Part shown: piece after piece, positions 28,121 through 49,684 of the stretch | Position numbering within the stretch: position 1 is the first letter of the stretch | Layout of the letters: each line of letters starts with the position of its first letter | Source of the DNA: Aliiruegeria haliotis | GTDB lineage: Bacteria > Pseudomonadota > Alphaproteobacteria > Rhodobacterales > Rhodobacteraceae | Reading direction: 5' to 3' | Length of the DNA: 64,000 bases | Assembly: GCF_003003255.1 (NCBI RefSeq) | Contig: NZ_PVTD01000001.1 | Coordinates: 1,054,001-1,118,000 of the forward strand | Program-made: the position numbers and the translations under genes | The notes under the pieces: model-generated | Told to the model about the DNA's origin: nothing | Database searches by the model: none | Seen by the model: only the letters and a program-made list of their open reading frames with translations

Positions 28121-28975
28121 ATGCCATTGTCCAACCAGGTTTCTGCAACACTGCTGCTGCCACGGCCAGCCACATTCACAGCCGAGCGGCTGCTGGAGCG
28201 GGTGAATGACGGGCTGTCCGGCGCCGGTGTGCACTTTCGCCTGCGGGAAACGCCGCGAGGCATCCTGCTGACCAGTGACACGATCCATGTGCAGGTCATG
28301 GCGCGCGACCTTCCGGTACAGGACCGCCGCTTCGAGGCCGCGTTGACATCCGATCTGCCGCGACTTCTGGGCGAGGACTGGGCGGAATTGGTGGCAGAGC
28401 ATCGCGCCTCGGTGAAGATCTGCGCCGGGCCGGGTCCACGGCCGGGTGAAACACCAGGCACGGGCCCGGAACTGGGCAAGCAGGACAGGCAGGATCTCGC
28501 GGACCTGATGATGCTGGCCTGCCACGAGGTCGCCGTTCGCATGGCCGAGACATGCCCGCCCCTGGCGGTCCATTGGAACCAGTCGCAACAGATCCTGACA
28601 CCAGAACGGTTTGCCGCCGTCGCCAACATGCGATTCCCCCTGCCCCTGTTCCTGCACGGGCGACCGACGGAGACCGGCCCGGGCGGGCTGGGCCTTCGGA
28701 TTGTCGGCGCAGAGGCGCTGGTCGGTCACGCGCTCGAAATTTCGCCAGTCGCGAGGCCACATGACTGGCTCATGTCCCGAGTCCTTGCCTTCGTCTCCTT
28801 CCTGCGCGCCAGAGGCCATGTACCGGCCGACGGGTCTGCGTTCGGGGTGGAGGACGGTGAGCGGATCGTCGTGCGGCGCACCGATGGCGGCGGGATCCGG
28901 CTCGTGGTCGAAGCGCATGGAGGCAAGTCGGTGAAATCCCCGACGCACCGGGTGGCGACCGATCAGGCCGCGTGA
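28121..28975 (+). CDS. DUF4261-like protein of unknown function
   Basis: A 284-residue soluble protein. The C-terminal third resembles DUF4261: a GLGLRIVGAEALVGHALEI strand-helix, then MSRVLAFVSFLRARGHVPADGS and a beta end with FGVEDGERIVVRR. The middle contains an AVHWNQSQQILTPERFAAVA stretch in the place where the family has a tryptophan-containing substrate-like segment. No signal peptide or membrane segment. Its last 13 bases overlap the convergent N-demethylase gene. The family function is unknown, and the family match itself is by eye and moderate. Confidence 0.65.
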   Translation: MPLSNQVSATLLLPRPATFTAERLLERVNDGLSGAGVHFRLRETPRGILLTSDTIHVQVMARDLPVQDRRFEAALTSDLPRLLGEDWAELVAEHRASVKICAGPGPRPGETPGTGPELGKQDRQDLADLMMLACHEVAVRMAETCPPLAVHWNQSQQILTPERFAAVANMRFPLPLFLHGRPTETGPGGLGLRIVGAEALVGHALEISPVARPHDWLMSRVLAFVSFLRARGHVPADGSAFGVEDGERIVVRRTDGGGIRLVVEAHGGKSVKSPTHRVATDQAA

Positions 28976-29775
28976 CGACGCTCCAGCACGGCGAGCTGTT
29001 CTGCCGACATTGAAGCGCGCTCCAGCAGCATCGTATGGATCGAGAAGGCCACCGCGCCACTTTCCGGCAGGCGCACCAGGCATTGCCGTTCGGAGCGGAA
29101 CCAGGGCGCAACGGGTCCGCCCACCGGCCTCGGATCATCCTCCGTGCGCGGCTGGAACAGCGCCGGATCATCGTAGAACAGCGCGTTCGACCGTGTGAGC
29201 GGGCGCCCCGGCTGGACACCGTCCAGCAGCCGCTGCACCCGTGCCGCCAACCTGTCATCATAGATATCGACCGGCACGTGAATGGCCAGCATCGGGCGCC
29301 CGATCTTTTGCGCCAGCGTCCAACTCGCCGGAAAGCAAAGCACAGCGGCGGTCAGCAGGTGTTCGGCGCCTCCCTCCGGCTTCTGGAGGATGCAGAAATC
29401 CTCCTGCACCAACCGTCCCAGCGTGGGGAGGGGGCGGTCGCGATCCAGATCGACCAACCGTCCGTCCGGACAGCGCATCCTTTTGCCCATGGGTTCGAAA
29501 CCGGGGTGGGAATCGAGATGGGACAGAACGAGATCGAAGAGTTCCCGCGCAGCAGGCTCTGCGCCTGGCGCGCATTGCAGAACGGCCTCGGGCTGTTCCG
29601 CCAGCAGCCGCTCCCGCTCCGCCATCTGCCCGGCGTAGCTGTCGAGCACCCAGAGCCAGTCGGTCGGATCGAACGGAACGGTCCCCGGCAAGGTCTCCGC
29701 CCGCGGCAGCATCCAGGGCGGGTTCGGGACGTGGCGGTTCAGGTAGGGCGGATGGTGCGGCCGTGTCTGTGTCAT
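28963..29775 (-). CDS. haem-dependent oxidative N-demethylase family protein (DUF3445)
   Basis: A 270-residue protein starting at ATG 29775. It has the DUF3445 features: the opening PPYLNRHVPNPPWMLPRA, DWLWVLDSYAGQMAERERLL, LVQEDFCILQKPEG, the LCFPASWTLAQKIGRPMLAIHVPVD core and the RPLTRSNALFYDDPALFQP block, with FSIHTMLLERASMS near the end. Characterised relatives bind haem and remove N-methyl groups from methylated amines with oxygen. The natural substrate here is unknown; no flavin or ferredoxin partner gene is adjacent. Confidence 0.9.
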   Translation of the reverse strand: MTQTRPHHPPYLNRHVPNPPWMLPRAETLPGTVPFDPTDWLWVLDSYAGQMAERERLLAEQPEAVLQCAPGAEPAARELFDLVLSHLDSHPGFEPMGKRMRCPDGRLVDLDRDRPLPTLGRLVQEDFCILQKPEGGAEHLLTAAVLCFPASWTLAQKIGRPMLAIHVPVDIYDDRLAARVQRLLDGVQPGRPLTRSNALFYDDPALFQPRTEDDPRPVGGPVAPWFRSERQCLVRLPESGAVAFSIHTMLLERASMSAEQLAVLERRHAA

Positions 29776-30146
29776 GGGCCGACCCTGCGCCTCCGCGCCG
29801 AGAGAAGGAAGCGCGTCATGGCGACGCGACCTCGCACCGCGCGGAGCCCGGGCGCGTTTGTGCAGGGTGAGAACTCCGGCGACCGGGGGAACGGTGGTGG
29901 GCATCTCCGAGCCATGGCTTCCGCACCGCCCGGAACACCAAGCCGGCGCGGTCGTATTCCGGGGGCTGTGCCACGAGCCGACCTTTGAGGTTACCTCCCC
30001 GGAGCCAACGCCAGCGCAACCACACCGCGCGCGGTTTCGCGCGCTTCGCCCACCGGAGGCAGCTGGCACATGTGGCTATCTCGACACCGGCTGCGGCCTC
30101 CAGACCAAGACGGCACCGGACACGCAAAGCGTACACCGCCCCTTGC
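29776..30146. other. intergenic region with a GC hairpin (30027-30044)
   Basis: No convincing gene. It must hold the end of ppsA transcription and the promoter of the N-demethylase gene. A hairpin with arms GCGCGCG (30027-30033) and CGCGCGC (30038-30044) and a 4-base loop is the only terminator candidate; no T-tract follows. Confidence 0.45.
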
Positions 30147-32564
30147 TCATAGAACGGCACCCTGAGCCCCGTCGGCCATATCACCGGACTCGGCGTCCAG
30201 AACATTGGCTTTCACCGCGACGAAGCTATCGGGCGTCACCGAAATCGAATCGATCCCGGCCGCCACCAGCAAGCGTGCGAAGTCCGGATCGTTGCTAGGC
30301 GCCTGACCGCAAAGCCCGATCTTCGCGCCCGCGGCGTGGGCCCGGGCAATCACGCTCTCGATCATCCACAGCACCGCCGGATCACGCTCCCGGAAGAGAG
30401 CGGCCAGCCCTTCGTTGTCGCGGTCGATGCCGAGCGTCAGCTGCGTCAGGTCGTTGGACCCGATGGAGAAGCCGTCGAACCGCCGGGCAAACGCCTCCGC
30501 AACGATCACGTTGGAGGGGATCTCGCACATGACATAGACCTCGAGGCCGTTTTCACCGCGCACAAGCCCGTGCCTCGCCATCTCCTCCAGCACCTTGTCG
30601 GCCTCCTCCGGCGAGCGGCAGAATGGGATCATTACCAGGACATTGTCGAAGCCCATCTCCTCCCGCAGGCGCCGAATGGCCCGGCACTCCAGCGCGAAGC
30701 CGTCGCGGTAGGCATCGGAGTAGTAGCGCGATGCGCCACGGAACCCGATCATCGGGTTTTCCTCGCCCGGCTCGAACTGCCGACCGCCCAGCAGGGCCGC
30801 GTATTCGTTTGTCTTGAAGTCGCTCATCCGGACGATGCAGGGGTTGGGATACCACGGCGCGGCAATGCAGGAGAGGCCCATGGCGAGGCTTTGGACAAAG
30901 TAGTCACAGCGATCCGCGTAGCCCTGTGTCAGCACGTCGATCGCGGCCTTGTCCTCCTCCAACTGCAACTGGTCGTAGCGGGTCAGCGCCAGCGGATGCA
31001 CCCTGATCTCGTTGTTGATCACGAACTCCATACGCGCCAGTCCAACGCCATCCGCAGGCAACCGCCACCAGCGCATGGCAGCTCCCGGATTGGCAAGGTT
31101 CAGCATTACCCTGGTGCGGGTTTCGGCCACCGCGTCGAGCACGGTTTCCTCCACCTCGACCTCCGCCGCACCGGCATATACCGCGCCACGGTCTCCCTCC
31201 GCGCAGTTGACCGTCACCATCTGGCCGTCATGCAGGATGTGGGTCGCGTCCCCGGTGCCGACGATGGCGGGCAGGCCCAGTTCGCGGCTGACGATGGCTG
31301 CGTGGGACGTGCGGCCGCCGTGATCAGTGATTATTGCGGAGGCGCGCTTCATGATAGGCACCCAGTCCGGGTCGGTTATCGAGGTCACGAGGATCGCGCC
31401 ATCGACAAATCGCTCTATATCGGAGGCGGTCTCGATCAGGCAGACCTCGCCGGTCGCCACGGACAGGCCGACGCTCAACCCGTCGAGCAGCTTCTCCCCG
31501 GCATTCGTCACCTTGTAGGACTTCAGCACCTCGCCGCCGGCGCGCGACTGCACGGTCTCCGGACGCGCCTGAACGATGTAGAGCTTGCCGGTGTCGCCGT
31601 CGCGGGCCCATTCCATGTCCATCGGCTGGCCATAATGCGCCTCGATGGTGCAGGACATCCGCGCAAGGTCGAGGATCTCGCTGTCGGACAGGACAAATTG
31701 CCCGCGCTCCCTGCGGGAGCAGGCCACGTTGCGGGTCCGGGCCCCGGCACCTGCCGCATAGATCATCTTGATCTCCTTGGCCCCAAGCGCCTTCTTCAGG
31801 ATCGGCGTCAGGTCGGGACGGTCGAGGAAGGGTTTGTAGACCTGGTATTCATCTGGATCGACCGCGCCCTGCACGACATTTTCGCCAAGCCCCCAGGCCG
31901 CATTGATCAACACCACCTTGTCGAAGCCGGTTTCCGTGTCGAGGCTGAACATCACGCCCGATCCCCCGATGTCGGAGCGGATCATCAGCTGGACCCCGAT
32001 CGACAGTGCCACAGCGAGATGGTCGAACCCCTGGATCTCCCGGTAGGAGATCGCCCGGTCGGTGAAGAGCGAGGCATAGCAGTGCCGGCAGGCCCGAAGC
32101 AGATCCTCCTCGCCACGGACATTGAGGAAGGTCTCCTGCTGGCCCGCAAAGGAGGCATCCGGCAGGTCCTCCGCCGTCGCACTGGACCGCACGGCCACCG
32201 ATGGCTCCGCCGTGCCGACCCGCGCCCCGAGCGCGGCATAGGCGTCGCGGATCTCGGCCTCAATCTCGGTGGGCCAGTCGCCGGCCCGGATCTCCGCCCG
32301 GATCAGCTTGCCTGCCTCCTGCAAGGTGATCCGCTCCCGCGCGAGGTCATCGAGGCAGGATGTCAGGAAGGTCTGAAGGTTGTTTTTCCGAATGAACCGC
32401 CGGTAGGCCTCGGAGGTCGTCGCAAAGCCCGGCGGGACGGAAATGCCCTCTTCGCCAAGGCTGCGCACCATCTCTCCCAGCGATGCATTCTTACCGCCCA
32501 CGGTCGCGACATCGTCACGCCCGAGGTCCTCGAACCAGATCAGGTTGTCGTGTGTATCGAACAT
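30147..32564 (-). CDS. ppsA: phosphoenolpyruvate synthase
   Basis: An 805-residue enzyme with the usual three parts. The N-terminal ATP-grasp half has VGGKNASLGEM, VRSSATAEDLPDASFAGQQETFLN and GGSGVMFSLDTETGFDKVV. The swivelling domain carries the phosphohistidine in ITDHGGRTSHAAIVSRELG (about residues 414-432). The C-terminal TIM barrel has GVGLARMEFVI, MIGFRGASRYYSD, EVYVMCEIPSNVI and the closing KIGLCGQAPSNDPDFARLL with the active cysteine. It converts pyruvate and ATP to PEP, AMP and phosphate. It lies 135 bases downstream of the hydrogenase maturation protease on the same strand, so it may share that transcript. Confidence 0.96.
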   Translation of the reverse strand: MFDTHDNLIWFEDLGRDDVATVGGKNASLGEMVRSLGEEGISVPPGFATTSEAYRRFIRKNNLQTFLTSCLDDLARERITLQEAGKLIRAEIRAGDWPTEIEAEIRDAYAALGARVGTAEPSVAVRSSATAEDLPDASFAGQQETFLNVRGEEDLLRACRHCYASLFTDRAISYREIQGFDHLAVALSIGVQLMIRSDIGGSGVMFSLDTETGFDKVVLINAAWGLGENVVQGAVDPDEYQVYKPFLDRPDLTPILKKALGAKEIKMIYAAGAGARTRNVACSRRERGQFVLSDSEILDLARMSCTIEAHYGQPMDMEWARDGDTGKLYIVQARPETVQSRAGGEVLKSYKVTNAGEKLLDGLSVGLSVATGEVCLIETASDIERFVDGAILVTSITDPDWVPIMKRASAIITDHGGRTSHAAIVSRELGLPAIVGTGDATHILHDGQMVTVNCAEGDRGAVYAGAAEVEVEETVLDAVAETRTRVMLNLANPGAAMRWWRLPADGVGLARMEFVINNEIRVHPLALTRYDQLQLEEDKAAIDVLTQGYADRCDYFVQSLAMGLSCIAAPWYPNPCIVRMSDFKTNEYAALLGGRQFEPGEENPMIGFRGASRYYSDAYRDGFALECRAIRRLREEMGFDNVLVMIPFCRSPEEADKVLEEMARHGLVRGENGLEVYVMCEIPSNVIVAEAFARRFDGFSIGSNDLTQLTLGIDRDNEGLAALFRERDPAVLWMIESVIARAHAAGAKIGLCGQAPSNDPDFARLLVAAGIDSISVTPDSFVAVKANVLDAESGDMADGAQGAVL

Positions 32565-32699
32565 GGTCGCTCCTCCGCAAGATCGACGCGACTGTCCCGG
32601 CTCAAGTATAGCGCCGATGCGACGCGCGCGCGTTGATCGGCGTCATGGAAGCGGGGTTTGCGGCCCGGCATCGCAACCGGCGCCGACTGGAAATCCGGG

Positions 32700-33143
32700 T
32701 CAGCGGACGGCCTGAGTCAACTCGGCCACGACGGCACTTGCGGCACGGGCCACCTCCGCCGACAAGCCCGCCCTGGCGGTGAAATCCGCCCCCTCGATCC
32801 CGATCACCTCCAGCCGGTCGGGCAAGCGGCCCAGCCGCCGGGCCGTTTCAACCGCTTCGGCGAGGCCGAATTCATGTGTCGAATTGTGAAACAGCGGCCG
32901 GGGGAGTGACGTCTTGATGGCATCGAAACGGACGATGCTGCCCGGGGCGGACCCGCTTCGGGTGGCGTCGATCAGCGTCAGGTTCGTTTCTGTCCCGAAA
33001 ATCCAGATCAGGCCCATACCATCCGCCGACCAGACCCGTGCACGCAGGCCGCCGTCGGCGAGCCGGGTTGCAATCCAGGGACCGACGCCATCGTCGCGCC
33101 GCATGGCATTGCCGAAACCGATGACGAGCCGCCGATCAGCCAC
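32700..33143 (-). CDS. NiFe hydrogenase maturation protease
   Basis: GTG 33143 is taken as the start; it overlaps the hydA stop by 8 bases and gives 147 residues. The HycI/HyaD motifs are present: VIGFGNAMRRDDGVGPWIA at the N-terminus, with the nickel-binding acid in RRDDGVG, and a central TLIDATRSGSAPG. A histidine in the FHNSTHEFGLAEAV segment matches the conserved metal ligand. Such proteases remove the short C-terminal tail of the large subunit once nickel is inserted. The tail to be removed is visible in the preceding gene. Confidence 0.9.
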   Translation of the reverse strand: MADRRLVIGFGNAMRRDDGVGPWIATRLADGGLRARVWSADGMGLIWIFGTETNLTLIDATRSGSAPGSIVRFDAIKTSLPRPLFHNSTHEFGLAEAVETARRLGRLPDRLEVIGIEGADFTARAGLSAEVARAASAVVAELTQAVR

Positions 33144-34425
33144 GATCCACCGACAGGTCGAGGAAATGCGTCGCACAAGAGATGCAGGGGTCATGGTTGC
33201 GGATCACCTGCTCACAGCGCAATCGCAAGGCGGTGTCGTCGAGCCCCCGCGAGGCCCGGATCACCCGTTTCAGATCGGCTTCGATCTGTGGCTGGTTCTG
33301 CGACGTCGGCGGCACGATGGTGGCGGAGACGATCCTGCCCTTCGCATCGATCCGGTAGCGATGATGGCAGATCCCGCGCGGTGCCTCGGTGCATCCCTGC
33401 CCGATCCCGGCGCGGGGATGCACCTCCGCTGCGGGCGGGTCGGGCGGCACGTACGCACCTGCCAGCCGCAGTGCTTCTTCGCAGGCATATTGGACTTCCA
33501 GCATGCGGACGAGGATCGACCTGAAGGGATTGCATTCGACCTCTGCCACCCCGCAATCCTGCGCCGTCTTCAACACGGTTGGGCCAAGATGGTCCCGGTT
33601 CAGGGCGTAGCGTGCCAGCGGCCCGACAAGGTAGGCCGCGCCATCCCGCATCCGTCCGTGAAGTGCGGTCGAGCGGACCACCTGCTCCTCTGTGAAATGG
33701 TCGTGGAAGTCGCTGACGGGTATGTCCAGCCCCCGGCTGGAGCCAATCCGACCGGCTTCGATCGGGTAGACCTGCGGATGGACCATGGCCACAAAGGTAT
33801 AATCGCCCCGGTCGTCGGGAAAGTCGAACTCCGCGAACCGAAGCGCCAGCGTGCGGGCGGCACCGATCCCCCATTCCAGCTCCGGAAGGAGGGCGGAGAT
33901 GGCGGCCCTGTCCGGCGCCCGGAAGAAGCCGCCAACCCGGGTATTGACCGGGTGGACGGCACGGCCACCGATCACTTCCATTATGTCATTGCCAAGTTTC
34001 TTGAGCCGCAGGGCCGTGGTCACCAGCTCTGGTTCGACCTCCGAGATCTCGATGATGTCCCGCAGCCCGAGGTAGTCCGGCGCATGCAGCATGGCAGCGT
34101 GCAGGACATGGCTCTGGATCCATTCGCCACAATAGATCAGCCGTCGCAGGGCGGCGATCTCGGGCGGGATGTCGGTGCCCCACGCCTGCTCCACCGCCTG
34201 GCAGGCGGAGGTGATGTAGGCAACCGGACAGATGCCGCAGATCCGGCTGGTGATATCGGGCGCCTCGGTGGCCTCCCTGCCCTGCAACAGCCCTTCGAAA
34301 AAGCGTGGCGGCTCGAAGATCCGGAACTCGACGATCTCCACGTCGTCGCCGCGCAATCGCACGTGCAACGCCCCCTCGCCCTCGACGCGGGCCAGTGCAT
34401 TGACGGTGATGGTCCGCTCACTCAT
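33136..34425 (-). CDS. hydA: NiFe hydrogenase large (alpha) subunit, group 3b-like
   Basis: A 429-residue protein starting at ATG 34425, overlapping hydD by 8 bases. Both nickel-site motifs are complete: RICGIC (about residues 61-66) and DPCISCATH near the C-terminus. After that histidine comes the tail FLDLSVDRG, the piece expected to be cut by the maturation protease encoded next. The internal HPVNTRVGGFF and NRDHLGPTVL segments and the lack of a twin-arginine partner put it with cytoplasmic NAD(P)-linked 3b 'sulfhydrogenases'. It would oxidise or evolve H2, coupled to NAD(P) through HydG and HydB. The hyp genes for nickel-site assembly are not in the window. Confidence 0.94.
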   Translation of the reverse strand: MSERTITVNALARVEGEGALHVRLRGDDVEIVEFRIFEPPRFFEGLLQGREATEAPDITSRICGICPVAYITSACQAVEQAWGTDIPPEIAALRRLIYCGEWIQSHVLHAAMLHAPDYLGLRDIIEISEVEPELVTTALRLKKLGNDIMEVIGGRAVHPVNTRVGGFFRAPDRAAISALLPELEWGIGAARTLALRFAEFDFPDDRGDYTFVAMVHPQVYPIEAGRIGSSRGLDIPVSDFHDHFTEEQVVRSTALHGRMRDGAAYLVGPLARYALNRDHLGPTVLKTAQDCGVAEVECNPFRSILVRMLEVQYACEEALRLAGAYVPPDPPAAEVHPRAGIGQGCTEAPRGICHHRYRIDAKGRIVSATIVPPTSQNQPQIEADLKRVIRASRGLDDTALRLRCEQVIRNHDPCISCATHFLDLSVDRG

Positions 34426-35185
34426 GGCGTGCCGCCTCCTCCGCAAATGGCTGGGCGCCAGCGTTGAAGCCCCGGTAGAGTGCCATGATCTCTCCCGCCG
34501 TCATCCCAAGGTCCCGCAATTGCGCGGACATGGCCGCGCAATTCGCGCCCTCCACGGGCCCGAAGCAACCGTAGCAGCCCCGCCCGATCCGTGGGCAGAG
34601 GTTGCCGCACCCGGCCCGTGTGACCGGTCCGAGGCAGGGGGTGCCCGTTGCGACCATGACGCAAACGGTCCCCGCACGTTTGCACTCGGCACATTGCGCG
34701 ACATCGGGAAGATCGGGCCGCCGCCCGGCGAGGCTCGCCGCGACAAGCTCCAGCAGATCCCGACGGGACACCGGGCACCCCCGCAGTTCGGCATCGACCG
34801 CCACGTGATCCGACACGGGCGTCGAGCGTTCCAGAACCTCGATGAGCGCGGGATCCGGGTAGACGCTGCGTTTCAAGGCGTCGAGGTCGCGCGTATCGCG
34901 GAGCGCCTGGATCCCGCCCGCCGTGGCGCAGGCCCCGATCGTGACGAGCCGGGCCGAGGCTGCCCGGATTTCCCGAATGCGCACCGCGTCCTGCGCAGTG
35001 GTGATCGATCCCTCGACAAGGGAGAGGTCATAGGGCCCCGCCTCCACGCGGCTGCTTGCCTCCAGGAAGTGAGAGATCCGGACCGCCCCGGCCAGCTCCA
35101 GCAACGCCTCTTCGCAGTCGAGAAGGCTCAACTGGCACCCGTCGCAGGACGCGAATTTCCAGATGGCAATGCGGGGCGCACCCAT
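34418..35185 (-). CDS. hydD: NiFe hydrogenase small (delta) subunit, group 3b-like
   Basis: A 255-residue protein from ATG 35185. The iron-sulfur ligands are in place: KFASCDGCQLSLLDCEEALL at the N-terminus, TIGACATAGGIQALRD, the ELRGCPVSR segment and the C-terminal cysteine-rich CLGPVTRAGCGNLCPRIGRG, then CYGCFGPVEGANC. There is no twin-arginine signal and no membrane anchor, so the enzyme is cytoplasmic. The subunit passes electrons from the NiFe site towards the flavin subunit HydG, encoded one base upstream. Confidence 0.94.
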   Translation of the reverse strand: MGAPRIAIWKFASCDGCQLSLLDCEEALLELAGAVRISHFLEASSRVEAGPYDLSLVEGSITTAQDAVRIREIRAASARLVTIGACATAGGIQALRDTRDLDALKRSVYPDPALIEVLERSTPVSDHVAVDAELRGCPVSRRDLLELVAASLAGRRPDLPDVAQCAECKRAGTVCVMVATGTPCLGPVTRAGCGNLCPRIGRGCYGCFGPVEGANCAAMSAQLRDLGMTAGEIMALYRGFNAGAQPFAEEAARHE

Positions 35186-35186
35186 A

Positions 35187-36047
35187 TCAGATCCCCCGTA
35201 TCCTGAGCCGCGCGGCGACCCGGTCCCACCGGAACACCGGCCCGTCGCGGCAGACGAAATCGGCACCGAACTGGCAATGTCCGCAGCTTCCGGTGGCGCA
35301 TTTCATGTTGCGCTCCATGCTGATCCACTGCGCATCCGGCGGCACGCCCATATCCTCCAGTGCAAGGCAGCAGTGCCGCATCATCACTTCCGGCCCACAG
35401 ACTAGCGCGCTGACATTGGCCGGATCACACCTGTCCAGGGCCCGCGCCAGACGCGTGGTGACGACCCCAACCATGCCGGACCAGCCCGGCGTGGCACGGT
35501 CCACTGTCACCGAAAGCGCGAGCGCGGGCTCGCCCGCCCAATCCCGAAGCTGCTCCGGATAGAGCAGGTCCGTTGGGCTTCGTGCGCCAACCACCAGAAT
35601 TATGGACCGGAACCTCTCTGGCATGGCCAGCGCCTGCAGGATGGCTGGTCGCAGCGGGGCAAGGCCAAGCCCGCCCGCGACGATCAGCAGGTCCCTGCCC
35701 GCCTGCGCATCCACGGGCCATGGTTTCCCAAAGGGACCGCGAAGGCCCAGCATATCTCCCGGTTGCAACTGGCACAGCGCATGAGACACAGCCCCGACAT
35801 CCCGTATCGTGTGCAGCAGGCTGTCCGCGTTGCCCGGATCACCGGAGATCGAGATCGCGATTTCACCGACCCCGAATGCGTAGAGCATGTTGAACTGCCC
35901 CGGCCGGAAGGGCGCCAACCGGCCATCGACCGGGCAGAGCGACAGGGTCGCAACGTCGTCCGGCCCCTGCCGACGGTGCGCCACACGGGCCCGCATGGGC
36001 AACAGGGCCGAGGGTATCCGGGCCGTTTCAGGCACCCTCGCCACCAT
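35187..36047 (-). CDS. hydG: hydrogenase FAD/NAD(P)-binding (gamma) subunit
   Basis: A 286-residue ferredoxin-reductase-like protein, starting at ATG 36047 inside the end of the upstream gene (20-base overlap). The FAD motif FRPGQFNMLYAFGVGE and ISISG follow the N-terminal barrel; the pyridine-nucleotide half has LLIVAGGLGLAPLRPAI and VCGPEVMMRHCCLALEDMG; the C-terminus has a cysteine set MKCATGSCGHCQFG ... VCRDGPVF for a 2Fe-2S cluster. It transfers electrons between the hydrogenase clusters and NAD(P). The preference for NAD or NADP cannot be called. Confidence 0.93.
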   Translation of the reverse strand: MVARVPETARIPSALLPMRARVAHRRQGPDDVATLSLCPVDGRLAPFRPGQFNMLYAFGVGEIAISISGDPGNADSLLHTIRDVGAVSHALCQLQPGDMLGLRGPFGKPWPVDAQAGRDLLIVAGGLGLAPLRPAILQALAMPERFRSIILVVGARSPTDLLYPEQLRDWAGEPALALSVTVDRATPGWSGMVGVVTTRLARALDRCDPANVSALVCGPEVMMRHCCLALEDMGVPPDAQWISMERNMKCATGSCGHCQFGADFVCRDGPVFRWDRVAARLRIRGI

Positions 36048-36498
36048 AGAGATCCGCCACCTGAAGCCTTTGCGCCCGGAACCGTGCCGCCAGATGCGGC
36101 AGCCAGTACTTGAAAAGCTGGTAGCCCAGCATCGGGTCGTCGTCGCATTTCCCGCGCAGGCAGGCCGCATCGAGGCCGACGCAGCTGACCTCCGTCAGGG
36201 CGCGGGCGTCGAACAGGGTTCTGTAGGGCGGGATCAACCACCCCCAGCCAAGGATATCGCCGCCGTGAACCGTCTCGACCACCGTCGGGCTGATATGGGC
36301 GGCCGAGATCTCGATCGCCACATCGCCCTTGCGCAGTACATAGACCAGCTCCGCCGGCGCTCCTTCCTTCTGGATCAGCTCGCCCGCTCCGAAATGGAAG
36401 TTGCGGGCGCAACCGGCCAGCGTTTCGATCGATCCCGCATCGAAGCGCCCAAGGATCAGGTGATCCGCCAGCAGTTCCGGTATGCTCTGAACGTCCAT
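36028..36498 (-). CDS. stand-alone cyclic-nucleotide-binding (CRP-like sensor) domain protein
   Basis: A 156-residue protein made of one cNMP-binding fold: F.AG..IQKEGAPAELVYVLRKGDVAIEI, then HGGDILGWGWLIPPYRTLFDARALTEVSCVGLDAACL and a C-terminal helix (LGYQLFKYWLPHLAARFRAQRL). The helix-turn-helix that follows in CRP/FNR proteins is missing: the protein stops after the dimerisation-like helix. The phosphate-binding cassette is not the CRP consensus, so the ligand may differ. Because the gene lies between hydB and hydG and overlaps hydG by 20 bases, it probably regulates or docks onto the hydrogenase at the protein level. Confidence 0.85.
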   Translation of the reverse strand: MDVQSIPELLADHLILGRFDAGSIETLAGCARNFHFGAGELIQKEGAPAELVYVLRKGDVAIEISAAHISPTVVETVHGGDILGWGWLIPPYRTLFDARALTEVSCVGLDAACLRGKCDDDPMLGYQLFKYWLPHLAARFRAQRLQVADLYGGEGA

Positions 36499-36501
36499 CG
36501 T

Positions 36502-37584
36502 CTAGTCCCCCTCAGTCAATGCCCGGGCCTCGGCAACGAGGTCGATCCCCGCCGGACACCATGTGATGCAGCGCCCGCACCCGGTGCAGCCCGAGGTCCC
36601 GAACTGCTGGTGCCAGCCGGACAGCTTGTGCGTCATCCACTGCCGATAGCGCGCGGCACCGCTCGACCGGACTGGCCCGCCGTGCACTTCGGAGAAACCT
36701 GGCGTGAAACAGCTGTCCCACCGTTCCCAACGCTCCGCCCTCTGGTCGGAGAGGTCGGTGCGGTCGACGATATCCGTGCAGAAACAGGTCGGGCAGACAG
36801 CGGTGCAATTGGTGCAATGCAGGCACCGTTTCGCGATGGCCTCCCAGCGCGGCGATTCCGCCGCCTCTGGCAACCGCTTTGCAACGTCCTTCGGCAGGGC
36901 GCGTGTCTGGCTGGCGGCGGCTTCCGCGATGCGCGCCCTTGCGCGCGCGCGCATGTGATCGGACGCGCGGCGAAGTCCAAGTCCCTCCAGCAGTGACGCG
37001 CCCGCGTCGGTCCCCACCTCGACAAGCATTCCTTCGTCCGTCTCCGTCAGGGCAAGGTCGAAACCGTCCTCCGCGCGCGGGCCGGTCGCGGTGGATACGC
37101 AGAAACAGGTCCGGGCGCTGCGCCCACAATTGACCGCAACGATCCGCGTGGCCGATACCCGGGTTGCATGGGCGGGATCAGCTGCGCGGCGGAATACCTC
37201 TGCCTGACGCGCGATCGCGGCAAGGTCACAGGCACGCACGCCGAAAAAGATCGTGGGCGGCCAGTCCTCCACCTCCGGGCGGATCTCGAACCCGTCTTCA
37301 TTGCGCAACGCCCTCCAGAGCCGGCGCTCGGGAGGGTGCAGCCAGTGTTTCCAGCCGCGCGGACCGACAACCGCATCGAACCAGCGCCGCGTGGCCCCCT
37401 CCTCCAGCCGGTAGTGACCGGGCGCCTGGCTGTCCAGGATGCCGCGTGGCAGGTCATCTGCGTCCTGCACCACATCGGGCACCAGCGCACCCTCGCTGAG
37501 AACCGGCGCAATAACCCGCCAGCCCGCCGCCAGGAAGTTCTCCAGCAGCAGGCGCGGGTCATCCAGGGCATAGCACTCACGCAT
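36502..37584 (-). CDS. hydB: hydrogenase 4Fe-4S (beta) subunit
   Basis: A 360-residue protein, first gene of the hydrogenase operon. The N-terminal two thirds resemble the HydB / anaerobic-sulfite-reductase A domain: IFFGVRACDLAAIARQAEVF, IVAVNCGRSARTCFCVSTATG. The C-terminus has two cluster motifs, CLHCTNCTAVCPTCFC (about residues 254-269) and CTGCGRCITWCPAGID (about 333-348). It relays electrons between the hydrogenase core and external carriers or sulfur/NAD(P) sites. Three bases separate it from the next gene. Confidence 0.93.
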   Translation of the reverse strand: MRECYALDDPRLLLENFLAAGWRVIAPVLSEGALVPDVVQDADDLPRGILDSQAPGHYRLEEGATRRWFDAVVGPRGWKHWLHPPERRLWRALRNEDGFEIRPEVEDWPPTIFFGVRACDLAAIARQAEVFRRAADPAHATRVSATRIVAVNCGRSARTCFCVSTATGPRAEDGFDLALTETDEGMLVEVGTDAGASLLEGLGLRRASDHMRARARARIAEAAASQTRALPKDVAKRLPEAAESPRWEAIAKRCLHCTNCTAVCPTCFCTDIVDRTDLSDQRAERWERWDSCFTPGFSEVHGGPVRSSGAARYRQWMTHKLSGWHQQFGTSGCTGCGRCITWCPAGIDLVAEARALTEGD

Positions 37585-37677
37585 CCCGGCCTCCGGCAGA
37601 ACCTTCGGTCTCGCCGCGGGGTGCAGCCACCTTCCGCGGCCGATGCGTCATGATTGCCCACTTTCGGACGTCTGGCG

Positions 37678-37691
37678 TTGACGTGGGTCAT
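37678..37691. promoter_or_regulatory. FNR/CRP-type binding site candidate in the hydrogenase–acs divergent promoter
   Basis: TTGAC-GTGG-GTCAT matches the FnrL-type dyad TTGAY-N4-RTCAA with one mismatch at the last position. It is 94 bases before the hydB start and 49 bases before the acs start, so one site could serve both directions. No footprint data; sequence match only. Confidence 0.5.
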
Positions 37692-37739
37692 GGCGCGCAG
37701 GGGCAACAGATGCGAAAATAAGAATGGGAGGAATCCGCC

Positions 37740-39478
<1,739 letters not shown>

Positions 39479-39482
<4 letters not shown>

Positions 39483-41482
39483 CGGTTATGGACAAACCGC
39501 GCCTGACGCGAGACCACGTCCTGTCGCTTCTGACGGGAATGATCAGAATTCGGAAGTTCGAGGACAAATGTGCCGAACTCTACCAGCAGCAGAAAATCCG
39601 CGGCTTCCTGCATCTCTATGACGGTGAGGAGGCGATTGCCGCCGGGGTGATTCCGGTCCTTGGCCGCGATGACAAGATCGTCGCCACCTATCGTGAACAT
39701 GGGCAGGCCCTTGCGCGCGGTGTGCCGATGACCACCGTCATGGCAGAGATGTACGGCAAGGCGGAGGGGTGCTCCGGCGGCCGCGGCGGGTCGATGCATA
39801 TCTTCGACAAGGACACCAACTTCTATGGGGGCAACGCCATTGTCGGCGGCGGGCTGCCGCTGGCCACCGGCATCGCGCTGGCCGACAGGATGCGCGAACA
39901 ATCTCACGTCACCGCCTGTTTCTTTGGCGATGGCGCGGCAGCCGAGGGCGAGTTCCACGAGGCACTGAACCTCGCCGCGCTGTGGGACCTGCCCGTGCTC
40001 TTTGTCTGCGAGAACAATGGCTATGCCATGGGCACCGCCATCGACCGCTATGATTCAGAAACCGACATCCACCAGAAGGCCAGTGCCTACGGGATCGAGA
40101 GTCGCCGGGTGGACGGGATGGATGTGGTCGCGGTGGAGGTCGCTGCACGCTCCGCCATCCGGCACATCCGGGAGACCGGCAAACCGGTGTTCCTCGAATG
40201 CCAGACCTACCGCTTCCGCCCGCATTCGATGTTCGACGCACAGCTCTATCGCAGCAAGGCGGAGGTCGCCGAATGGCGAAACCGCGGCCCTATCGTCCGC
40301 TTCCAGGACTGGTTGCTGGAAAACGGGTTGCTGCATGCGGAGGATATCGTCCGCATCGAGGCGGCCGCCGATGCCGAGATCGCCGAGGCGGTCGACTTTG
40401 CGGAGGCGGGCACCTGGGAGCCTGTGGAAGATCTGCTGAAGCACACCGTGGCAACCGCGCAGCCCGATCCATTGCCGACCGCTCCGGCTGGCCGGACGGA
40501 AGAGGTCACCTACCGGGAGGCCGTGAAACAGGGCATTCGCGATGCGCTCCAGCGCGACGATCGTGTTTTCCTGATGGGCGAGGATGTCGGCGCCTATGGC
40601 GGCTGCTACGCCGTCTCCAAAGGGTTGATCGACGAGTTTGGCGAGGATCGCATACGCGACACGCCGCTGTCGGAATCCGGTTTCACCGGCGCCGGAATCG
40701 GCGCAGCGGCCGCCGGCATGCGGCCGATTGTCGAGGTGATGACAGTGAACTTCTCGCTGCTGGCCCTCGACCAGATCCTCAACACCGCCGCCACGCTCCG
40801 CCACATGTCGGGTGGCCAGTTCGGTGTTCCCGTGGTGATCCGGATGGCGACGGGCGCGGGCAAGCAACTCGCCGCGCAGCATTCGCACAGCCTGGAGGGC
40901 TGGTTCGCCCATATCCCGGGTCTCAGGGTCCTTGCCCCCGCGACGCTGGAAGATGCCCGGGGGATGCTCTGGACCGCGCTGGAAGATCCCGATCCGGTGC
41001 TGATCTTCGAGAATGTCATGCTCTACAACCGCACCGGCCATCTCGATGTGAATGCCGGACCCGTCGACATCACCCGGGCGGCCGTGCGGCGCAAGGGAGA
41101 TGACGTCACGCTCATCACCTATGGCGGTTCGCTGCACAAGGTGATGGACGCAGCCGGGACGCTGGCCCGCGATGGCATAGAGGCCGAGGTCATCGACCTT
41201 CGCGTGCTCCGCCCGCTGGACGATGCAACGATCATCGCCTCGCTCGCCCGCACCCGTCGCGCGGTCATCGTGGACGAAGGCTGGAAAAGCGGCTCGCTCT
41301 CGGCAGAGATCGCGGCGCGGATCCATGAACAGGTCTTCTGGCACATGGATGCGCCGGTTGGACGGGTCTGCGCGGCTGAAGTGCCGATCCCCTACCCGGC
41401 CCATCTCGAACAGGCGGCGATCCCGCAGGTTCCACAGATCGTTGCGGCGGCCAGGGCCACGCTTGGGCGGGGGGCGTCATGA
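39479..41482 (+). CDS. pyruvate/2-oxoacid dehydrogenase E1, fused alpha and beta subunits
   Basis: A 667-residue protein in which residues about 1-325 are E1 alpha and 340-665 E1 beta. Alpha: [45 protein letters not shown], and the thiamine-diphosphate motif from [15 protein letters not shown] to ENNGYAMGT. Beta: [50 protein letters not shown] and [17 protein letters not shown] short Pro/Ala linker (PTAPAGRTE) joins them. The closest activity is pyruvate dehydrogenase, decarboxylating pyruvate and acetylating the lipoyl group of E2; other 2-oxoacids or acetoin cannot be excluded. The start overlaps acs and the stop overlaps E2. Confidence 0.93.
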
Positions 41483-42672
41483 GCATTTTCCAGATGCCGT
41501 CGTTGGGCGCCGACATGGAGGCCGGTACGCTGGTCGAATGGCTGGTTCGCCCGGGAGATCGTGTGACGCGGGGCGACATCGTGGCCGTTGTGGAAACCCA
41601 GAAAGGCGCCATCGAGATCGAGATCTTCGAGGACGGGATCGTGCATTCCCTGGACGTGGAGTTGGGCGCCAGATTGCCCGTCGGCGCGCAACTCGCAACG
41701 ATCCTGTCCGACGGAGAGGCGCCGCCGTCTGCCCCGGCGGCGCCAATACCGGACACACCCTCGTGCGCGGCGGTTGCGCCTGAAATGTCCGCACCGCCAC
41801 CGCGCCCGGACACGACGGCGCCAGTACCCACCGGCTTCGGGATCGCCGCCTCGCCTGCGGCGCGGCACCGGGCGGCAGAATGCGGCCTGGATCTCGCCGG
41901 AGTGACCGGACGCGGCCCCGACGGCGCGATCCTGTTGGCCGACGTGGAGGCGGCGGCCACGGGTGGGACCACCAAAGGCACGCCACGGCCCGCCGCCACC
42001 AGCGATGCGATGGCGCAGATGCGCAAGGCGATTGCAGCGGCCATGCAGCGCTCCAAGCGCGAGATCCCGCATTTCCAGCTCGCCCAGACCATCGACATTC
42101 ATACCGCCTCGGACTGGCTTGCGGCCCGCAACGCCGATGTCCCCCCCGGTGAGCGCATCCTGCTGGGCACGCTGTTCATGAAGGCCGCCGCCGTGGCAGC
42201 CGCAAATGTGAAGGAGATGAACGGACACTACGAGGCGGACGGGTTCCGCCCGGCACCGGGCGTCAACCTGGGCGTCGCCGTGGCCCTTCGTGGCGGCGGC
42301 CTTGTCGCACCTGCGATCCCGGATGCGGACCGGCTGCCGCTGCCTGCGCTGATGGCAGCCATGAAAGATCTCGTCTCGCGCGCCCGCGCCATGCGCCTGC
42401 GTTCCTCGGAACTGACTACCGGCACGCTGACCGTGTCCAGCCTCGGCGAGACAGGCGCCGACGCCATGAGCGGCATCATCTTCCCACCACAGGTGGCCCT
42501 GCTAGGCATCGGCGCACCGAAGCTTCGGCCGTGGGTGTTGGACGGGACGGTGGTTCCGAGACGGCTGGCCACGTTTACCCTTTCGGCCGATCACCGGGTC
42601 AGCGATGGCCGCCAAGCCAACCGTTTTCTCGCAGAGATCGAAACAGCACTGCAACACCCGGAGGCCCTATGA
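41479..42672 (+). CDS. dihydrolipoamide acyltransferase (E2) of the 2-oxoacid dehydrogenase complex
   Basis: A 397-residue protein with one N-terminal lipoyl domain ([20 protein letters not shown], lipoyl lysine in [10 protein letters not shown] near residue 42), a Pro/Ala linker, a peripheral-subunit-binding domain ([20 protein letters not shown], about residues 120-155) and the catalytic domain from about 170. The catalytic histidine/aspartate motif reads [16 protein letters not shown] (about residues 370-385). It accepts the acyl group from E1 and passes it to CoA. No E3 (lipoamide dehydrogenase) gene is adjacent, so E3 must be shared from elsewhere. Confidence 0.93.
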
Positions 42673-42917
42673 CACGTGAAGACGCCAGAATTGCTTTCCT
42701 TGAAGAACTGGTGAAGGTGGCGCCGGACCTGGATCCCGGCTCGATCGCGGATGGCGATCACATACAGGCTGACCTCGAACTGGATTCGATGGATGTTCTC
42801 AACCTCGTGGCGGCGCTGCATGAGCGCCTTGGCGTCAACATCCCCGAACCCGACTATGTGAAAATCGCCACGCCCGCGCTTGCCTCGGTCTATTTGAGCC
42901 AACGATTGGCGGGATAA
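42669..42917 (+). CDS. acyl carrier protein, last gene of the acs–E1–E2 operon
   Basis: An 82-residue acidic protein, start overlapping the E2 stop (ATGA). It has the phosphopantetheine site in LELDSMDVLNLVAAL (Ser at about residue 40) and a second-half ERLGVNIPEPDYVKI, both classic for acyl carrier proteins. It is not accompanied by fatty-acid or polyketide genes. Its overlap with a pyruvate-dehydrogenase E2 suggests a special acyl-transfer or structural role in this operon, which is inference. Confidence 0.9.
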   Translation: MTREDARIAFLEELVKVAPDLDPGSIADGDHIQADLELDSMDVLNLVAALHERLGVNIPEPDYVKIATPALASVYLSQRLAG

Positions 42918-45205: not shown

Positions 45206-45647
45206 ACTGGCGGTGGGTTTACTTCCTGCCCCGGCAACAGGCAAGGGTCCAATGTTGTTTCCCTGCGGCCAGCAGAGAGGTGTCTGTCACCGGCAGAGGA
45301 ACCACTACTGGCATCGCCAAGGTTTACAGGCAGCAGTGCCCCTTTTGGCCGAGCCCGGGAACGCAAGCGTTGCCGCATGCCCGTACGTCGGAGACAGCGT
45401 CTCGCCATGTGCTCCGCTTCGGGCACGAACTTGTTTCTCTGCCCCTGTGGAACAGCGCCAACCCAAGCGCCGATCTACCGCGAAACCACGCGCCTCGGTT
45501 TGACTGGCACTCGCCCTGCCAGCCGCCAGATCCACACTGCCGACAAAACAGATGAGAAACGAGCCGAGTCGCGGTAGGCTGAGGCAATTACACCAGGGGG
45601 ATGACCAATCCGGGGCATCCGTTTCACACAGATTTTGGGAGTCCGAC
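45206..45647. other. intergenic region between tRNA-Thr and the DUF3604 gene
   Basis: About 440 bases with no supportable gene. It should contain the promoter of the tRNA (minus) and that of the DUF3604 gene (plus). No integrase or repeat of the tRNA 3' end was seen. Confidence 0.4.
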
Positions 45648-47573
45648 ATGTTTACGCGCGCCTCAACTGCTGCCTGTTTGGTCCTTGTTGCCGGTTCCGC
45701 CGCAGCCCAGATCCACCCGAGCCCGGAATCGCTGAGCGGGCTTTATCCAGGGAAGGCCTATTCGCCCTACGCCGAACGCGGCTTTCCCTCGAAAGTCTAC
45801 TGGGGGGACACCCACCTTCACACGGGCTACTCGATGGATGCCGGCCTCTTTGGCAACACCACCGGTCACGACACAGCCTACAAGTTTGCCCGTGGCGAAG
45901 AGGTCATGGCGGCCTCCGGTCAGCCGGCGCGCCTTGCACGGCCGCTGGACTGGATGGTGTTGACGGACCATTCCGACGGCATGGGGCTGATCTTCGACCT
46001 CAAGGATCAGAAACCCAACGTCATGGAGTTCGAGCAATCGCGCCGTTGGGCCGAAGGGCTCTCGGAGGGAGGCGAGGCCAGCGCCGCCGCCGCGCTCGAC
46101 CTGATCACCACGTTTTCGCAAGGGGCCATCGACCCCGACCTGATGGCGCAATACTCGCCGGGATCAGCGATCTATGCCACGGTCTGGGAGACCGTGGTTC
46201 AGAAGGCGGAAGAATACAACGAGCCGGGCGTCTTCACCGCCTTCATCGGCTACGAATGGACGTCTCTGGTGAAGGGCAACAACCTGCACCGCAATGTCGT
46301 CTTGCGCGACAACGCCGACCGGGCGCTGATGGTCGAACCCATGGTCACGCAGCCGCCGGTGGGCTCGACGGACCCGTTGGACCTCTATCAATGGCTGGAG
46401 GAGTACGAGTCCAAGACCGGCGGCAAGGTGCTGTCGCTTTCCCACAACGGCAACCTCTCCAACGGATTGATGTTCCCGACCGAGCAGCAATACACCGGCG
46501 CTCCGATCGACGAGAATTACTCCCGTTTGCGGCACAAGTGGGAGCCGCTCTACGAGTTCACCCAGATCAAGGGCGACGGAGAAACCCACCCGGTCCTGAG
46601 CCCGGAGGACGAGTTCGCGGACTACGAGACCTGGGATGTTGGCAACCTCGACCTTACGGAAGCCAAGACCGAGGACATGCTGAAACGCGAATACGCCCGG
46701 GAAGCGCTCAAGCAAGGCCTCGCGCTGGAGAAGAAGCTCGGCGTGAACCCCTACAAGTTCGGCGCTGTCGGATCGACAGACAGCCACACATCGCTGACCA
46801 CGGCAGACAGTGACAACTATTTCGGCAAGGCGACCAATGCCGAGCCCAGCCCGACCCGGATGCAACATCCGTTCACCAAGACCGACAAGGGAACCTTCGA
46901 GGGCTACGAGCTTGTGGCCTCGGGCTACACCGGCGTCTGGGCGGAGGAGAACAGCCGCAAGGCGCTCTGGGACGCCATGGCCCGCAAGGAGACCTACGCC
47001 ACCACCGGCCCACGCATGATGGTGCGGTTCTTCGGGGGATGGGACTATTCCGAAACCGATCTGCGGTCGCGCCAACCGGCCTTCGCGGGCTATGAGCGCG
47101 GCGTCCCGATGGGCGGCGACCTGCGTGCAGCCCCTGATGGCGCAGAGGCACCGACCTTCATGGTCTACGCGCTCCGCGATCCCGTCGGGGCCAATCTCGA
47201 CCGGATCCAGATCGTGAAGGGCTGGATGGATGCGGCCGGGGATCTGCATGAAGCTGTCTATGATGTCGCGTGGTCCCAGGGCCGCGAGCCCGATGCCGAT
47301 GGCAAACTGCCGGCGGTGGGCAACACGGTGGACCTCGACGCCGCGAGCTTCACCAACACCATCGGAGCGCCGGAGCTGATGACGGTCTGGACCGACCCGG
47401 ATTTCGACGCCGGAGAAGCCGCATTTTACTACGCACGCGTTCTGGAGATCCCGACCCCGCGTTGGGTGGTCTACGACAAGGTGCGTTTCGGCGTGGAGAT
47501 CCCCGCCGAAGCCCAGACCAGCCATCAGGAGCGGGCCTACACATCAGCGATCTGGTACGGCCCGGAGGGCTGA
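45648..47573 (+). CDS. exported DUF3604 (PHP-like metal hydrolase) protein
   Basis: A 641-residue protein starting at ATG 45648 with GGGAG before it; residues 1-20 are a signal peptide ([21 protein letters not shown]). The start of the mature protein has [22 protein letters not shown], in which the GDxHxHT resembles the first metal site of the PHP fold. Further metal-type residues occur in [27 protein letters not shown] and [11 protein letters not shown]. This layout is DUF3604, a family of unknown reaction with PHP-like phosphoesterase features. It is expected in the periplasm. It stands alone after tRNA-Thr. Confidence 0.9.
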
Positions 47574-48996: not shown

Positions 48997-49684
48997 GCCG
49001 TCGCCCGAAGGCGCGACTGCGTAGGGGATCCCTGTTGCCGGGACACGGCTCGGCAATTTCCGGCACAGCCACCGTCAGACAGAAGTGCCAACGACGTTCA
49101 CAATGACCGGACAACCGTTCCTCTGAGGCGGGCCATGCAGTGCCGCCGACCTGTAGGGGCTTTGTGCGGACATTGCGCGGTTCGCGGTCCAGCCGACCGT
49201 TCCGCCGGGGCTGCACAAGCGCCATGCCGATCACACGCCGATACGGCGAAAGGCCCTTGCCAGTTGCGCCGATGTCTCGCCCAAGCCCTCCGATCAATTT
49301 CTGTTCAAAGCGCATCCCTGCCCAAGGGACGCCCCAATGCCCAGCAAAGTATGGTAGCCGCGGCCATACCACTCGCCTTGGGCAGCATTTGAGTGGTGGC
49401 GCGCGCAAAGGCCAATTGCTGTGTACGCAGACGGCACTGCGGCTGTGTCTGTGATTGCCGGCGAGGTCGTCAGGTGCCCCCAGCTTCCCTCAGCTTTTGT
49501 CGCCGGGGACCTCCGTACCGACCGATGCCGAGGCGCCCAGCCGGGCCGATCCATTGCCAAGGCCGCAACCCCACGGAAGCCCTTCGATCCACCCAAAGAC
49601 TGCATTGGAAAAGCGACTGAGCGGCGCCGGCAAGGGCAGAAGCCCGACGCCAAAATCCCAGCCTGCGACGCGGGGAGGCGTGAT
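48997..49684. other. intergenic region between dusA and a regulator
   Basis: About 690 bases with no supportable gene between convergent genes. The overlapping frames on both strands lack ribosome sites, and the low-complexity translations look non-coding. Confidence 0.45.

Follow-up and report, generated by a model that had tools for sequence, protein, structure and literature searches.

A group 3b-type hydrogenase operon between FNR-like boxes of ppsA and of an acs-pyruvate dehydrogenase operon in Aliiruegeria haliotis

The window analyzed here, a 64-kb stretch (C1:1054001-1118000) of the 5.04 Mb genome of Aliiruegeria haliotis, family Rhodobacteraceae, contains a divergent cluster of 11 genes. 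It consists of three separable pieces: ppsA, the gene for phosphoenolpyruvate (PEP) synthase; a six-gene operon for a group 3b-type [NiFe]-hydrogenase, which includes a gene for a small CRP-fold protein; and the acs-E1-E2-ACP operon, which encodes acetate-CoA ligase, a fused pyruvate dehydrogenase (PDH) E1 alpha-beta protein, an E2 acyltransferase and an acyl carrier protein (ACP). The explanation that we consider reasonably probable is that ppsA and acs-E1-E2-ACP are two FNR-type low-oxygen units, arranged back to back in part of the genus, that the hydrogenase operon is placed between their boxes in one subgroup, and that all three are turned on at low oxygen, with the hydrogenase as a redox valve that is tuned by the CRP-fold subunit.

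Under this explanation, an FnrL-type regulator would bind the boxes and switch on all three units at low oxygen, and the box between hydB and acs, here called box B, would be common to both genes in the subgroup with the joined layout. The fused E1 and the E2, together with a shared E3, would yield acetyl-CoA and NADH, while Acs would recover acetate and PpsA would feed PEP. The cytosolic hydrogenase would exchange electrons between NAD(P)H and protons or H2, and the CRP-fold protein would most likely bind the flavin/Fe-S end and, by analogy with HoxI, tune the enzyme via a nucleotide other than cyclic AMP or cyclic GMP (cAMP/cGMP). We infer redox balancing as the joint role of the module, as had been proposed in a preliminary description of this DNA. 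Placement between two regulator boxes could in this manner connect a hydrogenase to a low-oxygen carbon switch that was already there. The parts are of known kinds; the new points are the joined layout, which was seen in one genus only and for which no description was found in the literature searched, and the sequence signature of the CRP-fold protein.

FNR-like boxes and predicted low-oxygen control

Boxes were scored against TTGAY-N4-RTCAA, out of 10. Box A starts 69 bases before ppsA and box B starts 62 bases before acs, with the hydrogenase operon between them; the 64 kb window contained 7 matches of 9/10 and none of 10/10. The gap between ppsA and acs in the congener G008, in which no hydrogenase match was found, holds two FNR-like boxes of 9/10, one near ppsA and the other 62 bases before acs. 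Each flank of the window aligned to its own side of this gap, and the match faded beyond the box. Each of the 8 genomes of the genus with these genes had a box of at least 9/10 before acs and another before ppsA. Of the acs operons at 31 loci elsewhere in the family, 28 were preceded by such a box, as compared with 8.6% of random windows drawn from those loci, which were not restricted to intergenic DNA. On the Burkholderia savannae plasmid pMSMB0266, perfect FNR-like boxes precede hydB and acsA. A regulator with FNR-like N-terminal cysteines (L215) is encoded in the genome.

Low-oxygen control of the module is thus a prediction that is well supported by sequence, and the low-oxygen setting suggested in the preliminary description agrees with the two boxes and with their conservation. 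The shared promoter that was also suggested would be that of hydB and acs, which have box B between them; ppsA has its own FNR-like box in the 135-base gap to the protease gene, so its transcription may be independent of the hydB promoter.

In Dinoroseobacter shibae, adaptation to low oxygen is under the control of FnrL, and bidirectional Fnr/Dnr sites have been described (PMC5398030). The likeness to the present case lies in the bacterial group, which is the same, in the palindrome TTGAT-N4-ATCAA and in the bidirectional sites. None of the terms pyruvate, acetyl-CoA and acyl carrier was located at word starts in the main text of that paper, so the acs-E1-E2-ACP operon was not found to be named there as a target.

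Several observations count against low-oxygen control of the entire module. A box of at least 9/10 was located before hydB in only 13 of 68 loci, as compared with 4.4% of random windows, and the box before hydB scored 8/10 in congener G001, 6/10 in congener G003 and 8/10 on the plasmid of Paraburkholderia phytofirmans, so we predict that the hydrogenase is subject to FNR-type control in only a part of the lineages. Furthermore, the box of ppsA in B. savannae scored only 8/10, and no 9/10 box was found in 35 kb around the hyp genes. Domains of universal stress proteins (Usp), Hsp20 and hemerythrin were absent from 20 scanned flanking open reading frames (ORFs), a subset of those in the window, which is therefore not a full low-oxygen island.

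By the absence of Usp and Hsp20 genes from the 20 ORFs, the window differs from islands of the lxa or DosR type. The partial gene list of the lxa locus in Burkholderia cenocepacia includes genes for Usp, alpha-crystallin and phosphofructokinase (PMC6127331). The likeness to such regulons lies in the plasmid islands with ppsA or an acs-PDH-ACP operon, which carry Usp and/or Hsp20 genes. Among the islands with the same modules, Usp and CBS genes were found in Rhodococcus and Hsp20 in B. savannae, and a Leisingera plasmid has the acs-PDH-ACP operon near ppsA, Usp, Hsp20 and CBS genes. A Sulfitobacter plasmid has it near genes for phosphate acetyltransferase, acetate kinase and Usp. The operon is also present, with a split E1, on plasmids of Rhodococcus and Burkholderia.

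Distribution of the hydrogenase and of the pyruvate-acetate genes

The hydrogenase operon consists of hydB, the CRP-fold gene, hydG, hydD, hydA and a protease gene, and the subunit set hydB-hydG-hydD-hydA is complete, as judged from Pfam domains and gene order. Both CxxC motifs of the large subunit (L1 and L2), RICGICP and DPCISC(A/S)xH, were conserved in 9 of 9 aligned sequences. The best solved relatives of the hydA product were 5yxy, 9nez, 9e15 and 9e1j, representing archaeal cytosolic hydrogenase and the alpha subunit of sulfhydrogenase 1, all of which we take to be group 3b enzymes. The scores against the two NCBIfam sulfhydrogenase equivalogs were far below cut-off (225 versus 700 bits and 219 versus 880 bits). 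On sequence grounds, the enzyme is a group 3b-type [NiFe]-hydrogenase, yet not an equivalog of the archaeal sulfhydrogenases 1 and 2. It resembles sulfhydrogenase 1 of Pyrococcus furiosus in having four structural subunits with the same domains, and differs from it in the addition of the CRP-fold and protease genes; to our knowledge, the archaeal enzyme has no CRP-fold subunit. No second [NiFe]-hydrogenase was found in a PF00374 search of the genome.

The E1 protein scored above the curated PDH cut-offs (TIGR03182, 441 versus 393.85; NF006667, 397.8 versus 321), whereas the E2 protein scored below that for PDH E2 (TIGR01349, 210 versus 445). The assignments made in the preliminary description, namely a group 3b-type hydrogenase, a PDH-type E1, an acetate-CoA ligase and a PEP synthase, are all supported. 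Contig 9 encodes another PDH-type E1 pair (73-76 kb) and contig 1 a weaker one near 576 kb, so the fused E1 of the window is considered to be an extra enzyme.

The presence of the pair on contig 9 is relevant to an alternative explanation, by which the hydrogenase serves mainly in H2 uptake for mixotrophic growth, with NAD(P)H delivered to biosynthesis and with PDH, Acs and PpsA acting in acetate assimilation. From general pathway knowledge, Acs and PpsA would suit a flow from acetate to sugar. Group 3 hydrogenases have moreover been described as bidirectional (PMC12319191). We nevertheless regard this alternative as improbable, since the other E1 pair makes the E1 of the window look condition-specific and the FNR-type boxes point to low oxygen.

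To describe how the two halves of the cluster are distributed, we used a sample of 295 genomes from the family, in which the fused E1 was called at E < 1e-200 and the hydrogenase at E < 1e-100. The fused E1 was present in 37 genomes, 35 of them outside the genus, and the hydrogenase in 7, of which 5 were outside the genus. Only the genome of the window and that of the congener G007 contained both, and outside the genus none did. Since about 0.6 genomes with both halves would be expected there by chance, this gives no evidence of avoidance, merely none of association. The E1 loci were fetched from 32 of the 35 genomes outside the genus (G238, G129 and G071 were left out), in stretches of 6.8 to 19 kb. 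The genes acs and ACP were each located beside E1 on the same strand in 31 of these 32 loci, with L177 lacking both, while ppsA was within the stretch in 5 and neither hydA nor hydB in any. The ACP is thus a standard member of the operon and not a lone gene, as it had been called, and the phosphopantetheine attachment residue Ser40 was kept in all 41 aligned ACPs. It could serve, for example, in lipoyl or acyl supply to E2, within what we predict to be an FNR-type module in Rhodobacteraceae.

Of the hydrogenase loci, 31 extended for 10 kb on either side, and these contained ppsA in 6 cases, an acs-like gene in 2 and E1 in a single case, which was G007. In the five family loci outside the genus (L197-L201), the CRP-fold gene was present in all, and acs, E1 and ppsA in none within 19.5 kb. 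The ten genes had been proposed to form one unit, but a widely conserved ten-gene unit was rejected given that no genome outside the genus had both halves and that E1 was so rare in the hydrogenase loci. In these samples, joint conservation of the gene neighbourhood was confined to the genus.

Of the nine genomes available for the genus, 6 contained the hydrogenase, 8 contained E1 and 8 contained ppsA, and the joined divergent order of 11 genes was identified in 3, the window's genome and two congeners (G000, G002 and G007), with hydA sequences that were 79% to 81% identical to that of the window. The hydrogenase and E1 were located on different contigs of draft assemblies in G001, G003 and G004. 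The genes ppsA and acs are back to back without the hydrogenase between them in G008 and G003, with gaps of about 210 and 340 bases, respectively. A tree of 46 hydA sequences placed the three joined copies in one group (support 100/99), with G004 next to them (99/94), and these four within a ten-sequence Rhodobacteraceae group (100/99), while G001 and G003 clustered separately with G272 (100/100). For the hydrogenase, a loss in G003 and G008 and a gain in the three joined genomes are equally possible, since a solitary CRP-fold gene in G001 could be the remnant of a lost operon.

The identical six-gene order of the hydrogenase operon was also found on annotated plasmids of B. savannae, P. phytofirmans and Rhodococcus. 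The two halves occur together, but not side by side, in the plasmid islands of B. savannae and Rhodococcus sp. DK176, where the distance from hydA to E1 is about 18 kb and 25 kb, respectively. It was also noted that pMSMB0266 (L011/L032), which was typed as conjugative, carries the hydrogenase operon, the hyp genes, ppsA and the acs-PDH-ACP operon together.

These distributions bear on the possibility that the halves are chance neighbours, that is, two unrelated low-oxygen operons that adjoin in one subgroup and have only the regulator in common. Such a history is suggested by the lack of co-occurrence outside the genus in the 295 genomes, by the scarcity of E1 in the hydrogenase loci and by the location of the halves on different draft contigs in half of the six hydrogenase-bearing genomes of the genus. 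It appears somewhat unlikely to us, as the arrangement has been retained in three genomes that are diverged in hydA, separate plasmid islands in Burkholderia and in Rhodococcus again contain the two halves, and the hydrogenase operon sits between the two boxes.

The CRP-fold protein of the hydrogenase operon

The cyclic nucleotide-binding (cNMP) protein had been described as a lone gene. Among the best 80 of at least 574 confirmed hydrogenase relatives, which were all at least 50% identical and thus represent the near branch only, the CRP-fold gene was located between hydB and hydG in 72 of the 74 loci displaying both genes, the exceptions being L078 and L096. It is therefore a standard operon member. 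Of the remaining 6 loci, five start shortly before hydA, and the sixth, L081, yielded hydB, hydD and hydA, with no match for hydG or for the CRP-fold gene. The record titles of the 72 loci ranged from Alphaproteobacteria to Acidobacteria, Planctomycetota, Chloroflexi, Zixiibacteriota and Acidimicrobiia. We regard the CRP-fold protein as an almost invariant partner of group 3b-type hydrogenases that has received little description.

The protein has 156 residues and is predicted to form a CRP-type beta roll that is followed by a long C-terminal helix, and to lack a DNA-binding domain (AlphaFold model from 73 sequences, mean predicted local distance difference test score 92.7). Its Foldseek neighbours were GlxR, the Mycobacterium tuberculosis CRP and the solitary domain 3mdp. 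The positions of the cyclic nucleotide cassette were set by residue alignment to cGMP-dependent kinase, which placed the Glu at position 85 and the Arg at position 94; these residues presumably hold the ribose and the phosphate. In the 73 sequences, position 85 was W in 54, A in 10, V in 4, L in 3, S in 1 and T in 1, and never Glu, while position 94 was W in 51 and R in only 2. Position 93, one column before that of the cassette Arg, was R in 40 and K in 10. The protein of the window has W85, R93 and T94. The canonical Glu is thus missing from all 73 sequences and the aligned Arg from 71 of them, the result for the Arg being dependent on the alignment, since 40 sequences have an Arg in the preceding column. 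On these grounds, we consider cAMP/cGMP to be unlikely as the ligand.

A true cyclic-nucleotide sensor that couples the carbon state to hydrogenase activity would be in line with the PF00027 match, with the cAMP-bound GlxR and M. tuberculosis CRP among the closest folds and with the Arg in the preceding column. With the Glu absent throughout and both cassette columns mostly occupied by Trp, this candidate was disfavoured, and we judge it to be very improbable.

We instead favour, by analogy, a HoxI-like NAD(P)H-sensing subunit. HoxI of the Cupriavidus necator soluble hydrogenase has been described as binding to the diaphorase in the form of a dimer and as having a site for activation by NADPH (PMC3702609, PMC3189943), and the name HoxI has been applied, in one sentence, to a cNMP-domain protein from the group 3b cluster of a methanotroph (PMC12319191). 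The two proteins are alike in being small cNMP-domain proteins encoded in operons for hydrogenases that are NAD-linked or, in the present case, predicted to be so, and differ in gene position and in that HoxI has Glu at the column where the present family has mostly Trp. The identity between them was 17% to 19% (19% in a direct BLAST). The profile of the CRP-fold family matched HoxI with an E value of 1.5e-9, as compared with values of 2.4e-9 and 1.7e-8 against two Crp/Fnr regulators encoded in the genome of the window, and of 0.07 against a third such regulator, from Leisingera. By sequence, the match to HoxI is thus no better than that to two ordinary Crp/Fnr regulators, which tells against the proposed role. 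HoxI orthology was not established, as two of the three controls scored alike, and our suggestion is that the protein works like HoxI, not that it is HoxI.

A wider and more tentative proposal, which we hold at somewhat less than even confidence, is that the group 3b-type hydrogenases of a broad branch in bacteria have a fifth, CRP-fold subunit, with a cyclic-nucleotide pocket rebuilt around the signature G-W-S-W...P-P-Y-x-W-x-F-D-A-R-A. This subunit may sense a different ligand, probably NAD(P)H, and by allosteric action set the direction of the enzyme. In the window, such a valve would share its FNR-type box with a dedicated pyruvate/acetate operon.

The solitary CRP-fold gene of G001 (contig 37, L208:11113-11571) is located upstream of ppsA and encodes a protein that is 67% identical to that of the window, with a similar signature; no other hydrogenase-operon gene was found within the 19 kb stretch. 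It could be the remnant of a lost operon or reflect a separate use of the protein. Two loci on Streptomyces plasmids (L113 and L114) contain CRP-fold relatives and have no hydrogenase gene annotated within the 12 kb displayed, one of them beside genes for a universal stress protein and carbonic anhydrase.

Gene inventory and neighbourhood

The ORFs and domain matches agreed with the preliminary description for all 11 genes and for their order (Table 1). The 4-base overlaps that it reported throughout were found only within the acs operon, at each of its three junctions; the hydrogenase operon has a 3-base gap between hydB and the CRP-fold gene, and its other overlaps vary with the choice of start codon.

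Table 1. Genes and FNR-like boxes of the cluster, with positions in the window
Feature	Position	Strand	Evidence
ppsA, PEP synthase	30147-32564	-	NF005057/TIGR01418 above cut-off
FNR-like box A, TTGATCGGCGTCAT, 9/10, upstream of ppsA	32633..32646	.	mononucleotide-shuffle p 0.004
Hydrogenase maturation protease	32700-33194	-	PF01750; TIGR00072 above cut-off
Hydrogenase large subunit, hydA	33136-34446	-	PF00374; RICGICP and DPCISCATH motifs
Hydrogenase small subunit, hydD	34418-35188	-	PF01058; best NCBIfam match sulfhydrogenase delta, below cut-off
Flavin/NAD(P)-binding subunit, hydG	35187-36047	-	PF00175, PF10418
CRP-fold (cNMP_binding) protein	36028-36498	-	PF00027
Fe-S subunit, hydB	36502-37584	-	PF17179 and other 4Fe-4S models
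FNR-like box B, TTGACGTGGGTCAT, 9/10, between hydB and acs	37678..37691	.	mononucleotide-shuffle p 0.006
acs, acetate-CoA ligase	37740-39482	+	NF003313 above cut-off
Fused PDH E1 alpha-beta	39479-41482	+	TIGR03182 and NF006667 above cut-off
E2 acyltransferase, lipoyl and E3-binding domains	41479-42672	+	PF00198, PF00364, PF02817; below PDH E2 equivalog cut-offs
ACP of the acs-PDH operon	42669-42917	+	PF00550; below NCBIfam ACP cut-offs

Neither an E3 gene nor hyp genes were found within the 11-gene module. HypD is encoded at C1:559724, adjoined by genes for HypE, HypF, a HypB-like protein and HypA, about 525 kb from the module. A scan for sigma-70 promoters and terminators gave no more matches than in shuffled sequences. 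The flanking genes that were scanned, which include those for glutamine synthetase, an ornithine cyclodeaminase family protein, an AsnC-type regulator, Dus, an ABC transporter and DUF3604, gave no further low-oxygen signal.

The gene beside ppsA (28963-30069) encodes a protein similar to the alpha subunit of haem-dependent oxidative N-demethylase (PF11927), and is adjoined by a 284-residue ORF without a Pfam match (28121-28975). On the other side of the module, we noted a 511-residue ORF without a Pfam match (49421-50956) and a gene for a large DUF3604 protein (45552-47573; PF12228, E 2.3e-241).

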